Source: Brevinematales bacterium (lineage in GTDB: Bacteria; Spirochaetota; Brevinematia; Brevinematales; GWF1-51-8). From it: a stretch of 64,000 nucleotides of DNA. The notes beneath the pieces were generated by a model. It searched no databases. It was given only the letters and a program-made list of their open reading frames with translations, and was not told where the DNA came from. This document shows positions 3,165 through 20,932 of this stretch, in pieces. A program made the position numbers and the translations under genes. How positions within the stretch are numbered: position 1 is the first letter of the stretch; every line of letters starts with the position of its first letter. The stretch is taken from assembly GCA_020059465.1 (NCBI GenBank), contig JAGVBZ010000037.1:33315-97314 (forward strand). The letters run 5' to 3'.

Positions 3165-3193
3165 TTGACTGACATCAGTCCCCGCGTTACATT
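3165..3193 (+). promoter_or_regulatory. sigma70-type promoter immediately before dinB
   Basis: TTGACT (3165-3170), 17 bp, TACATT (3188-3193); ATG at 3199. Confidence 0.6.
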
Positions 3194-3198
3194 ATTCT

Positions 3199-4263
3199 AT
3201 GGGCAAATTCCGTAAAATTATTCATATAGATATGGACGCCTTCTATGCGTCGGTGGAACAGCGCGACAATCCCGCATTGAGGGGAAAGCCGGTTATAGTA
3301 GGCGGTTCCCCGGAGACGCGCGGAGTGGTCTCGACCGCGTCGTACGAAGCGCGAAAATTCGGTGTGCATTCCGCAATGCCCACTGTTACCGCGCTCAAGC
3401 TCTGTCCGCAGGGAATTCTGGTATACCCTCATTTCGACAGGTACAAAAGGGCGTCGGAACATATCCGCGCGATATTCCACGATTATACCGATTTGGTCGA
3501 ACCGATGTCGCTCGACGAGGCATATCTCGATGTCACGGTCAATAAAAAGGGCATCGATTCCGCGACACGTATTGCGAGGGAGATCAAGGCGCGTATCCGG
3601 ACGGTCACCCGTCTGACGGCGTCCGCCGGGGTATCATATAATAAGTTTATCGCCAAGGTGGCGTCCGATTACAGGAAGCCCGACGGATTGACGGTCATTC
3701 CGCCGGATCAGGCGATCGGGTTTATCGATAACCTGCCTATCGGAAAGTTCTACGGTGTTGGCCCGGCGACCGAGAAACGGATGAAGGAGCATGGGATCGC
3801 AAACGGCGCGGATTTGCGGAAATTCACTCTAGAGGAGTTGAGGGAGTACTTCGGGAAATCCGGAGAGTATTATTACAATATCGCGCGCGGTATCGACGAG
3901 CGACAGGTTGATCCGAACTGGATTCGCAAATCTATCAGTCAGGAATACACCTATCCTAAGGATATCTATAAACGCGAGCAGATCGAAGCGTATTTCCGGG
4001 AGTCTGCAGGTGAACTCAGCCAATCGATGGAAAAAAAGAAGATCACCGGAAAGACAATCTCGATCAAGGTGAGGTACGCGAATTTCGAGACAGTCACCCG
4101 AAGTCACACTATTGAAGAGTATACCCGTGACGCTGAAACGATGTACCGTGAGGCGATTATGCTTCTTAAAAAAACGGATATCGATAAAAAGCGGGTACGC
4201 CTGCTTGGATTGGGGATGTCGTCGTTATTGGACGATGAGGATAAATTGACGAATAATATATGA
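3199..4263 (+). CDS. dinB: DNA polymerase IV (Y-family)
   Basis: IIHIDMDAFYASVEQRDNPALRGKPVIVGG...EPMSLDEAYLDVT...GVSYNKFIAKVASDYRKPDGLTVI. Confidence 0.96.
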   Translation: MGKFRKIIHIDMDAFYASVEQRDNPALRGKPVIVGGSPETRGVVSTASYEARKFGVHSAMPTVTALKLCPQGILVYPHFDRYKRASEHIRAIFHDYTDLVEPMSLDEAYLDVTVNKKGIDSATRIAREIKARIRTVTRLTASAGVSYNKFIAKVASDYRKPDGLTVIPPDQAIGFIDNLPIGKFYGVGPATEKRMKEHGIANGADLRKFTLEELREYFGKSGEYYYNIARGIDERQVDPNWIRKSISQEYTYPKDIYKREQIEAYFRESAGELSQSMEKKKITGKTISIKVRYANFETVTRSHTIEEYTRDAETMYREAIMLLKKTDIDKKRVRLLGLGMSSLLDDEDKLTNNI

Positions 4264-12683: not shown

Positions 12684-12825
12684 ATTGATCTCCTTCTTGG
12701 TAATTCGCGTTAATTATATACTATTCCGGTAAAAAAATCAATATGGAAATAAAATACGTATGTAAAATTGAAATTTCAGTAAAATCAGGGCATACTATGA
12801 TATCAAATTGAAGGAGAATGCCAGG

Positions 12826-14100
12826 ATGCGAAAAACACAGATTATCGCGGTTTTTATAACGGCATTGATGGGGATATACGTATCATGTGCGCCTGTTCCG
12901 GGCGAGCCTGCCCCCGCAGCCTCGATAAATCCCTTCCAGCTTTACATTCTTTCGTGCAGTTCGAATATGATCGGGTTCTCATGGACTTCCACAAACGGCG
13001 CTACAGGATATATTCTATCCTATTCGACCAGTTCCAACGGGACTTTCAGCGAATTATACTCCGGAAGCGGTCTCTCCTACAGCCAGTATGGGCTTTCCCC
13101 GGACACCACCTATTATTATAAACTTTCCGCCTCCTTCGGGGGTACGGAATATTCTCTGCCGATGTATGCAATGCGGACTATGCCGGTTCAAATGACCTTC
13201 GGCGGTGTGACCGTCAACGGGTTTATCAGTAATCTTACGGCAGGGCAGATGAAGACATATTCGATCTATGCGAAAAATGTGAAAATTACAAGCGGCACGG
13301 TCAGCAATTTCGTCGCCGATTCATATTTTACTATCACAGGTACGAATTATTCGGTGGACTATCCGCGTCTCGCGATCAGCATCCAGTCCCCGGACTTATC
13401 AAACACGATGTGGTATTATATCGATAGTAAGGGCTATTTCGAGCAGAAGATATTTATGCGTTACGGCGCGGGCACATACACAGTAAAAGTCCTGAACGGG
13501 CCTCATCCCGACGGGTACTGGTATGTTGCGGCGGTGATGTGGGCGGTCAATTCCCGTACAAACGATTTCCGCTACCTGATGCCGTCGGGGATGGTACAGT
13601 CGCTCGACCCGAGAATCCGCGCGCTTGCGTTCCAGCTCGCAGGAGCGGTGTCGGTGATCTCTAACAAAGCACGTATTATTCACGATTATATCGTAAAAAG
13701 CATTTATTACGATCTCGAAGTCTTAAACGGGGTCGATAAACCGATGGACGCAGTATCGTGCTATCTCCGGGGTTCCGCGGTTTGCGCGGGATATTCGTTC
13801 TATTATGCCGCATTACTGAGAGCCCTCGATATTCCCGCTATGTACGTCCGCGGAATGGCAGGCGGTTCTACTACTATCAATCATGCATGGAACGAGGTTT
13901 ACTGGGGTGGGTCATGGCATATTGTCGATACGACATGGGACGACCCGTTAATAAACGGGCATAGCGATTATCCCGACGGGTATAACCTGAGATGGAAGTA
14001 TTTCGATATACCGGAAGTATTATTCCATGACGACCATACCAACGAGTCGCCTGTCGCGTATTATTCGTTGGATATTCCCGGAGAAGAAGGGGAGTATTAG
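12826..14100 (+). CDS. Lipoprotein with fibronectin-III-like and transglutaminase-like domains
   Basis: Lipobox YVSCAP; GSAVCAGYSFYYAALLRALDIPAMYVRG (Cys), INHAWNEVYWGGSWHIVDTTWDDP (His, Asp). Confidence 0.87.
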   Translation: MRKTQIIAVFITALMGIYVSCAPVPGEPAPAASINPFQLYILSCSSNMIGFSWTSTNGATGYILSYSTSSNGTFSELYSGSGLSYSQYGLSPDTTYYYKLSASFGGTEYSLPMYAMRTMPVQMTFGGVTVNGFISNLTAGQMKTYSIYAKNVKITSGTVSNFVADSYFTITGTNYSVDYPRLAISIQSPDLSNTMWYYIDSKGYFEQKIFMRYGAGTYTVKVLNGPHPDGYWYVAAVMWAVNSRTNDFRYLMPSGMVQSLDPRIRALAFQLAGAVSVISNKARIIHDYIVKSIYYDLEVLNGVDKPMDAVSCYLRGSAVCAGYSFYYAALLRALDIPAMYVRGMAGGSTTINHAWNEVYWGGSWHIVDTTWDDPLINGHSDYPDGYNLRWKYFDIPEVLFHDDHTNESPVAYYSLDIPGEEGEY

Positions 14101-15575: not shown

Positions 15576-16193
15576 ATGCTTGATAGAGGTGATTCGTCAA
15601 AATGCAGTATATGCGGAAAAGAAGATTCTGTGATATTTGTAAAAATTGTTTCCGGTGATAAAATAGAGCAGAAGGGATTATGCGCCGGTTGCGCTATAAA
15701 GTACCTTCAGGATAAGGATAATATTAAGGAGTTGAATTTCGTAGACCAGAAACTCCTGCATGTTATCGAGGAGATGAAAGACCTTTTAACGGGAATAATT
15801 TCGAATATAAACCTGATTGGAATGAAAATGAAACCTGAAAACTCAGACCAGAAGCAAACCAGCGAAAATCACGGACAGGAATGTTCGTATTGCGGATTGA
15901 AATTCGAGCAGTTCAAGGAAACCGGCATGCTGGGCTGTCCCGAATGCTACAGCACGTTTAAAGAGTACATCGGGGAATTTGTATTCGAATTGGAACGCGG
16001 GACCAGCCATAAAGGAAAGATGCCGAAAAAGTTTGCCAAACTCTATCTTCTGAAACAGGAGATCCTTTTCCTGAATAATAAGCTTGAGAAGTTATTATTC
16101 AACGAGGAGTATGAGGAGGCTGAAAAGGTCAAGAGGAAACTGGAGAAACTGATCGGAAATTTCGATACAAGACGGCATGATGAGATCCATTGA
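15576..16193 (+). CDS. mcsA: McsA-like zinc-finger/UVR-domain protein
   Basis: Four CxxC units (CSICG, CAGC, CSYCG, CPEC) and C-terminal EEYEEAEKVKRKLEKL UVR motif; upstream of mcsB-clpC. Confidence 0.87.
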   Translation: MLDRGDSSKCSICGKEDSVIFVKIVSGDKIEQKGLCAGCAIKYLQDKDNIKELNFVDQKLLHVIEEMKDLLTGIISNINLIGMKMKPENSDQKQTSENHGQECSYCGLKFEQFKETGMLGCPECYSTFKEYIGEFVFELERGTSHKGKMPKKFAKLYLLKQEILFLNNKLEKLLFNEEYEEAEKVKRKLEKLIGNFDTRRHDEIH

Positions 16194-17208
16194 ATTTCCG
16201 AAAAGCGTGAAACGGCGCAAGAACAGGCTCGATAATTTTACTTTTTCCTCCAGGGTTCGGATAGCCAGAAATCTCGAAGGTTTGATGTTTCCTCATTTCC
16301 TGAAAGAAAAGGATAAAAACGAAATCGACGAGAAGTTGACGGATAAAATAAAGGAAATGCCGTACCGTTTGAATACGTTAAGCTTCGATGAGATTCCGCA
16401 TGCGCAGGTCATGGTCTATGTGAGTACCAATGTGATTACGCAGGAGTTTATCCGGAACGGCAGAAAAATGATTTCGGATATGACCGGGGATTGGATCATA
16501 CTGATTAACGAGGACGATCATCTCCGGATATTTGCTATAGAGAAAGGGTATAATATTAGTAAGATATATCAGCGTCTGGCCGACGTAATGGGTTCGGTAG
16601 AGGATAAAGTGGATTTTGCGTTCGATGAGAAATACGGGTATCTGACCTCCTCTATTTTGAATATCGGCACAGGGCTTCGTCTGTCCGTATTGGTGAATTT
16701 ATACGGGATGATGGCCAGTAAGCAGATTCACGCGTTTACCGAAAGTGTGAATAGTATCGGTTACTCGGTAGCCAACGCCGGGGGAGATAAGTCCGCGAGC
16801 GGGCTTTATTATATCTCGAATATCTATTCGATCGGCTTGTCCGAGGACGATATGGTAAACGAATTTGAGGAAATGATCAGCCGGTTATATCATCTTGAGA
16901 TGGAAATGCGGCGCGTTTACTTCGGCAAACGTCAGGAGCGCGAGATTGTTTTCGAGGAGATTTTCGAACTGAAGAACCGCGACAAGATCGGATGGAGCGA
17001 TATGCTCTACTATATCTCCCTGATTGATTCGCTGAACGGGAAATATCTCGCAATCAGCGATAGAGACGAGCTTAGAACGCTTGTTGTACAGGGTACTGAC
17101 GATTATCTGATATACCGGAATAATATTCCGGCTGAAAATACAGCGTCTGAGAGAATGGAATTGTTTAAAAGAATTATCTCTCAGATTAAGTACAAATCGG
17201 TCGCATAA
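16177..17208 (+). CDS. mcsB: McsB-family ATP:guanido phosphotransferase, divergent active site
   Basis: FTFSSRVRIARNLEGLMFP, INEDDHLRI, FDEKYGYLTSSILNIGTGLRLSVLV, located between mcsA and clpC. Confidence 0.88.
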   Translation: MMRSIEFPKSVKRRKNRLDNFTFSSRVRIARNLEGLMFPHFLKEKDKNEIDEKLTDKIKEMPYRLNTLSFDEIPHAQVMVYVSTNVITQEFIRNGRKMISDMTGDWIILINEDDHLRIFAIEKGYNISKIYQRLADVMGSVEDKVDFAFDEKYGYLTSSILNIGTGLRLSVLVNLYGMMASKQIHAFTESVNSIGYSVANAGGDKSASGLYYISNIYSIGLSEDDMVNEFEEMISRLYHLEMEMRRVYFGKRQEREIVFEEIFELKNRDKIGWSDMLYYISLIDSLNGKYLAISDRDELRTLVVQGTDDYLIYRNNIPAENTASERMELFKRIISQIKYKSVA

Positions 17209-17232: not shown

Positions 17233-19797
17233 ATGCATGATTATACCGGGTTTACACCGACCGCACAAAAAGTCATTTCTATACTGTCACAGCAGGAAGC
17301 AAGACGTTTATTCAGCGAAGAACTGCTGCCCGAGCATTTATTCCTGGGGCTTCTGAGAGAGCCGGAAGGGGCGGGGGTACGGACGCTGTTATCGATTGGA
17401 ATAAATATTGACGATATCAAGCGCGAAGTGGAATTGACGCTCCGCAACCGCAGCGGAAATACCCTCACGTTGGGCGGAATCCCTATATCCAAACGGGTAA
17501 AACTTGTGCTCGATCTGTCCCGTCAGGAAGCAAAGACCATCGGGCATAACTATATCGGTACCGAGCATCTCCTGCTGGGCATACTTGCCGAAGACAACCC
17601 TGAAGCGATACTCCCGTTTCTGCTGGAAAACCGCAGTATCGACATCAATCAGGTAAGAAACACTGTTATAAAAACAGTCGGTTACGGTGAAATAAAGAAC
17701 TGGAAGAAAAAAAGAAAGGAGATCAAGACCCCATTCCTCGATAAGTTTTCACGCAACATCACCCAGATGGCGCTGGAGGGGAAGCTTGATCCCGTTATCG
17801 GGCGGCAGAAGGAAATTCAGCGGGTCATTCAGGTACTCAGCCGCCGTCAGAAAAACAATCCCATCCTGATCGGCGAACCCGGTGTAGGAAAGACAGCGAT
17901 AGTCGAGGGCATCGCCCAGATGATTATCACGAATTCGGTGCCGGAAAAACTGATTGATAAGCGTATTATGCTCCTCGATATGGGGCTTCTGGTCGCCGGT
18001 ACGAAATACCGCGGCGAATTCGAGGAACGGCTGAAAAATGTCGTCAAGGAGACGGAAGATTCTAACGACGTCATTCTGTTCATAGACGAAATCCATACGA
18101 TTCTGGGCGCGGGAAACGCCGAGGGCGCGCTCGATGCGTCCAATATGCTGAAACCGGCGCTTGCGCGCGGTCTGATACGGTGTATCGGCGCGACAACGTT
18201 CGATGAGTATAAGAAACGGATCGAGAAGGACAAGGCGCTCGTGCGGAGATTCCAGCCGATTGTGGTGGATGAGCCGGATGTGGACGGGACGATTGAAATA
18301 CTGTCCCGCATCAAATCGAAGTACGAGGCGCACCATAACGTCCGTTATACCGATAACGCGATACGCGCGGCCGTTCGCCTCTCGCACCGTTATATCACCG
18401 ACAGGCATCTGCCGGACAAGGCGATAGACGTGATAGACGAAGCCGGCGCGAATGCGTCCTCGCTGACAAGCAATAAACCTCAGGAATTGATCGATCTAGA
18501 AATAGAATTATCCAACCTTGAGAACAAGAAATCGGAATTTGTCCGCGGGCAGATATACGAACAGGCCGCCGATGTACGCGACCGGATACATTTGATCCGC
18601 GAGAAGTACGAGGAACTGAAGCAGGACTGGATTACCAATATTAAACGGGATACGGTGATTATCGACCAGAAAGAAATACAGAGGGTTCTATCGGTTATCA
18701 CGAATATCCCTATGTCGAATCTCGATGATGAGACCAGTTTCGAACGGTACTCGAAGATCGAGATGCATCTGGAGGCTTCGGTAAAGGGACAGGGCGAGGC
18801 GGTCGGGGTTGTTTCGAACGCCATCCATAAAAGTGTGGTGGGTTTCCGGGATATCAAGAAACCGATTGCGAGCTTCATTTTCCTCGGCCCGACCGGGGTA
18901 GGGAAAACGGAACTGGCGAAGTCGCTTGCGAAATTCATGTTCGGTACCGAAGATTCTCTGATACGTGTGGATATGAGCGAGTATATGGAACGTTTTAATG
19001 TATCGCGTATCCTTGGAGCGCCTCCCGGATATGTCGGGTACGAGTCGGGTGGAGAACTCACCGAAAAGATTCGCAGAAAACCGTATTCGGTGGTGCTGTT
19101 CGACGAGATCGAAAAGGCCAACCCGGATATCTTCAATATTTTCCTCCAGATATTAGACGAAGGCAAGGTCACGGATAGTCTGGGGAATAAAGTCAATTTC
19201 CGCAATACGATCATCATTTTTACCTCGAATATCGGGACAGAGCGTCTCTCACAGAAATCGATTATGGGGTTTGGGGATTCGGACGCGGATGAGACAAAAA
19301 AGAAGGAATATGTACTCGCTGAACTTAAGAAGAACCTTCGCCCGGAATTCCTGAACCGTATCGACGAGATCGTCGTCTTTAATACATTGGACGGAGATAT
19401 ACTCGAACAGATATTCGATAAAATGATCTATGACCTGAATGAATCGGTGGCCGTGCAGGGTGTGGCGTTTAAGGTCAGCCATGCCGTACGTTCGCATGTA
19501 ATCGAGACAGGTTTCGATATAAAATACGGCGCCCGGTCTCTGAGACGATCTATCAGCAGGTTGATCGAGATTCCAGCTTCCCAGAAGATGATCAACGAGA
19601 ATATGCGGATTGATCCTGAAAAGGAAAACCTGGAGCTTTATGTCGGAATGCATGCCGGAATCATCGACTTTAAGTTTAAACGGAATAAAATAAAAGACGA
19701 TGAAAAATCGGATATCGCAGTAAGAGAAAAAATCGGCAAAACACGTCCTATGAAAAAACGGACGACCGAAATGGGTGAAGAGGAATTGGTCAATTAG
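17233..19797 (+). CDS. clpC: ATP-dependent Clp protease ATP-binding subunit ClpC
   Basis: Double Clp_N, GEPGVGKT and GPTGVGKT Walker A motifs, UVR-type middle domain, MGF loop (KSIMGFG). Confidence 0.95.
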
Positions 19798-19855: not shown

Positions 19856-20428
19856 ATGTCATCTCTTTTAATGGCTTTAATTTTTTTAGCAGTAGCAGCA
19901 GGTTTGTTTTTTCTTGCGAGAATAGCTGTAAAGCGTCCGCGCGGCGATAATTGGGGCGGGATTGTAATGGCGTTTGCGATTATGAGCGGCGTCACGGCTC
20001 TGATACTTTTAATCGTTTCGATCGGATCTTTAGTCGGCGCGAAGAATTATGTAGTGGAGATTCGTTCTTCTGTGAGCCGTTTCACTGTCCTGTTGAAAGA
20101 TGGGAACGAAAAAGTGAAGAACGCGGCCAACCCGAATGAAGCAATAAATACCATCAACAGTACGATTGAGAAATATAAGGATGAAATGTCGGTATACAAT
20201 AGTCTTGTCAATAAAGCGGTAGGGCCCGGTAAGGAACTTTCGGTCGAAAAGTTCCAGAAGATGATACAGCCCGGTTCCGATTCATCTATTCCTATCGACG
20301 GTAAGATAAAAGCTGTCATCGATTTTACCAATTCGATTAATGAAGCCATCGTCAAGTTTGCTAAAGACGCGACAGGCTCCGCAGAGATGAAGGATTCTTA
20401 CTCAAAGTTTAAAGCTTTATTAAAATAG
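19856..20428 (+). CDS. Hypothetical membrane protein with two TM helices
   Basis: Two N-terminal hydrophobic helices followed by a helical domain; SD aggagg. Confidence 0.65.
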   Translation: MSSLLMALIFLAVAAGLFFLARIAVKRPRGDNWGGIVMAFAIMSGVTALILLIVSIGSLVGAKNYVVEIRSSVSRFTVLLKDGNEKVKNAANPNEAINTINSTIEKYKDEMSVYNSLVNKAVGPGKELSVEKFQKMIQPGSDSSIPIDGKIKAVIDFTNSINEAIVKFAKDATGSAEMKDSYSKFKALLK

Positions 20429-20494
20429 TATTTTTCGTGTCACTGGTGTATTGCGGACATTAAATCTACATAACGATAGGGTTGGAGGAAATTT

Positions 20495-20932
20495 ATGAAA
20501 AGAGTTTTCGGATTAGGAGTAATATTTGCCTCGATGATCATGCTATTTTCATGCGGCAGTGCTGTCGATAGCGCTCAGAAGGATATGAAAGCCGCTGTTG
20601 ATAAAATGACGGGGATTATCAAGGACGGGACTGTAAAGGTGAAATCGGTCAAAGGGTCATCGGAGATTGCCGGTTTTATCAACGCGACTACCGATGAAGC
20701 GAAAAAATGTATCGGCGATTATAATACTGTCGTCGAAAAGAACCAGTTAACCCCTGAGCAGAAGGTTAAAATTGAAGAAAGTCTTAAGGATTCTATGGCT
20801 GAAAAAATCAACGCTATGAACGATTTCCACAAAGCGATAGGCGATGCCATTATGATGCTATCGACCAATCAGATTGGAATTGCAGAAGTTCAGAGCGCTT
20901 TGGAAAACTCAAAGGCTGTGCTGAATTTCTAA
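20495..20932 (+). CDS. Hypothetical lipoprotein, helical
   Basis: MKRVFGLGVIFASMIMLFSCGSAVD lipobox. Confidence 0.72.
   Translation: MKRVFGLGVIFASMIMLFSCGSAVDSAQKDMKAAVDKMTGIIKDGTVKVKSVKGSSEIAGFINATTDEAKKCIGDYNTVVEKNQLTPEQKVKIEESLKDSMAEKINAMNDFHKAIGDAIMMLSTNQIGIAEVQSALENSKAVLNF

Follow-up and report, generated by a model that had tools for sequence, protein, structure and literature searches.

McsB phosphorylates arginines on proteins in bacteria, marking these proteins for destruction. In Bacillus subtilis McsB, lysine replacements at R29, R31, R34, R125, R176, R207 and R337 left no phosphorylation signal in vitro, and the R86K, R255K, R272K, R281K and R341K proteins lost their stimulation by McsA (PMC7235348). 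The C167S protein is kinase-inactive and yet supports faster degradation of MgsR than the deletion does, a partial degradation that the authors ascribed to a kinase-independent adaptor role (PMC7235348). In Staphylococcus aureus, the zinc finger of McsA touches residues Y147-Y153 of McsB and sets the catalytic cysteine (review PMC12467219). The case for a non-kinase job of McsB has thus far rested on single point mutants. Searches of the open full-text literature turned up neither a natural pseudo-McsB, in which catalytic residues are missing, nor a report on McsB function in spirochaetes.

A spirochaete mcsA-mcsB-clpC locus

We analysed a 64,000-nucleotide stretch of DNA from a Brevinematales bacterium, here called the window, in which a forward-strand gene at 16177-17208 encodes a 343-residue McsB; the translation agrees exactly with that quoted in an earlier sequence-only reading of this DNA. 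By whole-protein homology, which covers the guanidino-kinase domain (PF00217, 2.6e-39) and the McsB dimerisation domain, this protein is a true McsB orthologue. Five NCBIfam McsB models match it over most of its length, all far below their cut-offs (142.2 bits against an equivalog cut-off of 500 for NF053707, 160.1 against 385 for NF002194), and catalytically intact spirochaete McsBs also fall short (338 against 385 for locus L017). The host genome (G000, 96.6% complete) was searched for the second McsB that had been proposed as a check, and PF00217 found the window gene only, the sole member of the guanidino-kinase family in this genome. FlaA (PF04620), a flagellar sheath protein of spirochaetes, was matched in each of the 11 genomes checked from the phylum and in none of 14 control genomes, in agreement with a spirochaete host.

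The start of mcsB is overlapped by a mcsA-like gene on the same strand (15576-16193, 205 aa), whose product carries two zinc-finger cysteine sets, supported by alignment, and a UVR-like C-terminal tail. It matches the NCBIfam McsA model NF053706 with 2.4e-23, which is below the cut-off, and the McsA chains of B. subtilis (8wtb_B, 2.5e-17) and S. aureus (8gqd_E, 1.1e-4). A clpC-like gene (17233-19797, forward strand, 854 aa; Clp_N, two AAA domains and a UVR motif by Pfam) begins 24 bases 3' of mcsB and completes the order mcsA-mcsB-clpC. Directly 3' of clpC, at 19856-20932, lie genes for two small, paralogue-looking proteins (190 and 145 aa) without a Pfam match, the second with a lipoprotein-like signal. 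Elsewhere in the window, at 12808-14100, a probably secreted protein combines a transglutaminase-like core (PF01841, 7.3e-15) with a fibronectin-like N-terminal part.

AlphaFold2 modelled the window McsB with a mean pLDDT of 94.7 and a pTM of 0.92 from a 78-row alignment, and with a pLDDT of only 35 from the single sequence. The best PDB matches of the alignment-based model are McsB structures, B. subtilis McsB 6tv6 leading with a TM score of 0.83 over 339 columns; the predicted fold is that of a complete McsB, dimerisation domain included. Against the two nearest congeners, dN/dS is 0.044 and 0.064 for mcsB, 0.027 and 0.038 for mcsA, and 0.026 and 0.030 for clpC (saturated for the more distant of the two), which places mcsB near mcsA and at roughly twice clpC. 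Many key residues differ from those of known McsBs and one relative has a shortened frame, as a decaying pseudogene or a sequencing or assembly artefact would have it. This explanation is highly improbable and is refuted by the comparative data: all four congeners, and other families too, have an uninterrupted frame, dN/dS is close to 0.05, and the full-length model is confident. The gene is under strong purifying selection despite its altered catalytic residues, and is not decaying.

Catalytic positions and arginines

Residue numbers of B. subtilis McsB were transferred through a Bacillaceae orthologue (L001; 6tv6 and 8wtb alignments), and all codons given here lie on the forward strand. In every alignment, Asp113 (16513-16515) occupies the E121 position and Ser159 (16651-16653) the C167 position, just as the sequence-only reading had proposed. 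That reading had also considered Glu212 lost. Most alignments instead place Asp204 (16786-16788) there, in a lid loop that is about three residues shorter: this alignment-dependent placement comes from a 57-row MAFFT alignment, the pairwise comparison with S. aureus McsB 8gqd and a profile of catalytically intact McsBs, and a 115-row MAFFT alignment alone sets a gap. Among the relatives, this position is Glu in L129, L130 and L132 and Asp in L127, L128, L133 and L134. Because the congeners and two related families (f2, f3) thus have Asp or Glu there, with L131 as the exception, the shorter lid probably retains a carboxylate at this position, by conservative substitution.

Aligned to the intact-McsB profile, the window protein therefore reads D/S/D in place of Glu121/Cys167/Glu212. 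The combination D/S/(D or E) recurs in 8 of the 9 sequences from three sister families (f1-f3), and the serine is fixed in all nine. Shared by same-genus genomes and related families, the substitution pattern is above chance. The claim that all three catalytic positions are substituted suggests a dead site, which is not supported, since D/S/D is conservative and common to relatives.

These conservative and stable residues look as if they might still be in use, and because of them a guanidino kinase that still works, in weakened or altered form, is a serious rival explanation, although on balance we consider it rather unlikely. Asp113, Ser159 and Asp204 would then stand in for Glu121, Cys167 and Glu212, with catalysis perhaps slow or directed at a different substrate, and without feedback through a phospho-arginine (pArg) receptor. 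Several arginine kinases with single substitutions of this kind keep some activity. PDB titles list arginine kinases E314D (1p52) and C271A (1sd0), each with one substitution at these positions and a solved structure, so that such folded enzymes exist. Also in favour of a residual kinase, the former Cys loop lies within the best-conserved stretch of the f1-f3 proteins, VDFAFDEKYGYLTSSILNIGTGLR, which includes the McsA-contact loop and has 60% invariant columns against a baseline of 20.6%. The contact loop itself, FDEKYGY (16621-16641, forward strand), corresponds to Y147-Y153 of S. aureus McsB, is kept in the window protein and is identical to that of Rossellomorea.

The arginines point both ways. 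R26, R28 and R31 (within 16252-16269) match the kinase-essential R29, R31 and R34 of B. subtilis, Arg117 (16525-16527) matches R125 and Arg168 (16678-16680) matches R176; the nucleotide-contacting arginines noticed earlier in SSRVR, DHLRI and GTGLR are indeed present. The five kept arginines are also in line with a residual kinase. Of the six kinase-essential arginines in the domain, one is gone: the profile of intact McsBs aligns Ala199 (16771-16773) with R207. The sequence-only reading had overlooked this loss, together with the changes of R86 to Met, R272 to Glu and R281 to Asp. It had seen no clear counterpart to the C-terminal RDxxRA site, which holds for R337 and D338 and fails for R341: in the 115-row alignment Thr322-Ala323-x-x-Arg326 (17140-17154) stands at R337-D338-x-x-R341, and the last arginine, here Arg326, is present in 111 of the 115 rows.

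Normal arginine-kinase activity has likely been lost, since C167, R207 and R337, each required in B. subtilis, are all changed. The inactivity of the B. subtilis C167S, R207K and R337K proteins likewise argues against an attenuated kinase, all the more as the window protein does not even have a lysine at the R207 position. Two counterpoints concern the use of B. subtilis as a guide. Nearly all spirochaete McsBs, even those with an intact E/C/E triad, lack R337 (Arg occurs in L089 and L091 only), so its role may not be transferable to spirochaetes, and feedback through this pArg site may be peculiar to Bacillota. Moreover, the interface with McsA or between the subunits of the dimer may be different, because R86, R272 and R281, which serve McsA stimulation in B. 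subtilis, are changed.

Spirochaete McsBs and their partners

Within the phylum, 245 of 395 genomes carry a PF00217 match. We aligned 111 spirochaete proteins, a sample that was partly picked for high scores and is hence biased, with four Bacillota loci and PDB sequences as outgroup. E121, C167 and E212 are all kept in 9 of 104 well-aligned spirochaete McsBs, and all six kinase-domain arginines in 12; only three proteins of a single deep group (L017, L020 and L022; f17/f26) keep both. At the other extreme, 25 of the 104 have no acidic, thiol or hydroxyl equivalent at any triad position. After re-alignment to the intact-McsB profile, 48 of 108 proteins have none of the three original residues, a count that replaces 60 of 115 from the 115-row MAFFT alignment because the profile set Asp or Glu at E212 for most related rows. 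With these columns excluded from tree building, parsimony requires at least 7 changes at C167 and 12 at E121, the directions of which are not inferable; the minimum of 12 for E212 stems from the earlier 115-row alignment.

In this tree, the 13 rows of the window's order group as a single, fully supported clade, and altered sites also occur in many other spirochaete families. The singular protein pictured by the sequence-only reading is accordingly better described as one carrier of a lineage-wide trait that is shared across families. In the single-contig relative L134 (G007), the mcsB frame (3165-4094) meets a TGA near residue 310 and thereby loses the C-terminal helices around the counterpart of R341; an intact clpC follows. 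The McsB-like proteins encoded at loci L067-L070 (family f5, same class) are extremely divergent, scoring 84-101 bits against the family profile, and have no recognisable adjoining mcsA. For a long open frame at L119, a fusion was rejected, as the frame seems to run on through high-GC DNA upstream.

Family f4, of the window's own order, has lost R31 and R176 in most members, has a variable R125, and carries Lys or Tyr at E121. The lineage can evidently lose its nucleotide site, which lends some colour to the idea that the window McsB is a purely structural remnant, devoid of both catalysis and nucleotide binding, that only holds McsA or ClpC together. We regard this as improbable for the window protein, which retains R29, R31, R34, R125 and R176.

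The partner genes are widely conserved: among 115 loci, mcsB has mcsA next to it in 106 and clpC in 91. A ClpC-type match was obtained in the 21 genomes checked, the one in G013 (69% complete) being weak and ClpB-like only, and none of the related genomes checked lacks ClpC. In family f4, clpC is unlinked to mcsAB. At L135-L138 of this family, mcsA and mcsB sit beside genes that by eye resemble cell-wall-synthesis genes (PBP2/RodA-like), clpC is located elsewhere and most nucleotide arginines are lost.

A search of G000 found no CtsR, and a search for the CIRCE operator found none. B. subtilis carries both a PF00217 gene and CtsR; neither family was matched in the 'Bacillus subtilis' control genome, from which that stretch may be missing, and the control counts for both are therefore unreliable. 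The YwlE-type phosphatase (CTGNTCRSP) is absent from G000 according to a long sequence pattern combined with translation, which speaks against an attenuated kinase. The only LMW-PTP-family gene of G000 has the arsenate-reductase-type P-loop VCVHNSARSQ, and loops of this type are also found in the LMW-PTP-family genes of f1-f3. Hits of a shorter, 17-base pattern were mostly due to chance, including one in the window genome; the longer pattern with translation left two real ones. These are in G030 and G052, two of the three genomes with a complete McsB. G142 has CTGNTCRSQ, and the match in G198 looks like chance.

This distribution supports the notion that the complete kinase would travel with its eraser, in one clade only and hence without statistical independence. 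The link is not strict, because no YwlE was found in the middle group that keeps E121 and C167; another, unrecognised pArg phosphatase may exist. Glutamates E32 and E106 of the ClpC N-domain, which we take to hold pArg, look conserved almost throughout the aligned ClpCs and thus do not discriminate between these readings.

A putative McsA-bound partner of ClpC

Taken together, the window McsB is somewhat more probably than otherwise an McsA-bound, ATP-site-retaining adaptor of ClpC whose arginine-kinase activity is slight or absent. The ATP-site arginines, the McsA loop, the fold and an operon under selection favour an McsA-dependent and possibly nucleotide-dependent role with ClpC. Phosphorylation of protein arginines would largely have disappeared from a protein whose fold, McsA-docking loop and most ATP-phosphate arginines persist. 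It would most likely associate with McsA, the product of the preceding gene, in a conformation set by nucleotide binding and the McsA zinc fingers. This complex would regulate the activity of ClpC, the product of the following gene, or supply it with substrates, and pArg tagging would be secondary. Our analysis shows the sequence, the operon, the predicted fold, the residue states, selection, the single copy and the absence of CtsR and a YwlE-type phosphatase; from there, kinase loss, binding of ATP and of McsA, and the adaptor function are inferred. The sequence-only reading had arrived at a similar pseudo-kinase adaptor for ClpC, and likely kinase loss, retained arginines and the adjoining clpC agree with it, while our data also allow for a weak or altered kinase. 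Against the adaptor role, mcsAB of family f4 is not beside clpC, and a review holds kinase activity to be required for the ClpCP adaptor role of B. subtilis McsB (PMC5506225), so that the analogy with B. subtilis argues against a simple adaptor.

On the scale of the phylum, we tentatively entertain, as a possibility in fairly even balance with its negation, that McsA/McsB of spirochaetes was repeatedly converted into a ClpC partner independent of arginine phosphorylation. The window lineage would be an ATP-holding intermediate, and only the deep clade f17/f26 would keep a complete kinase, with a YwlE-type phosphatase in two of its three genomes. Our survey suggests that arginine phosphorylation should not be concluded from the presence of mcsB in the genome of a spirochaete. 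Natural McsBs in which the catalytic Cys and one essential Arg are replaced, and which stand beside McsA and ClpC under strong selection, make the question of the non-kinase job directly testable.

The closest described counterparts are the McsBs of B. subtilis, Geobacillus stearothermophilus and S. aureus (6tv6, 6fh1-3, 8gqd), with which the window protein shares the full-length fold (TM 0.83), the mcsA-mcsB-clpC order, R29/R31/R34/R125/R176, R341 and the McsA-contact loop. It differs from these Bacillota proteins by E121D, C167S, R207A, R337T/D338A, R86M, R272E, R281D and, probably, E212D, by an identity of only 22-24% and a shorter lid, and by a genome without CtsR and YwlE-type phosphatase. 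The B. subtilis C167S mutant (PMC7235348), with the same Cys-to-Ser exchange at the catalytic cysteine, is its laboratory parallel for a non-kinase McsB; unlike that mutant, the window protein is natural, and its further changes at 121, 207, 212 and 337 are long fixed. Phosphagen kinases such as arginine and creatine kinase have the PF00217 catalytic domain and the nucleotide-site arginines in common with the window McsB, which differs from them in lacking the N-terminal phosphagen-kinase domain, in its McsB-type C-terminal dimerisation domain and in its changed Glu/Cys/Glu substrate clamp. With the bacterial Ser/Thr-type protein pseudokinases (review PMC12599244), whose fold is unrelated, it would have in common that a kinase fold is retained for tasks other than catalysis.
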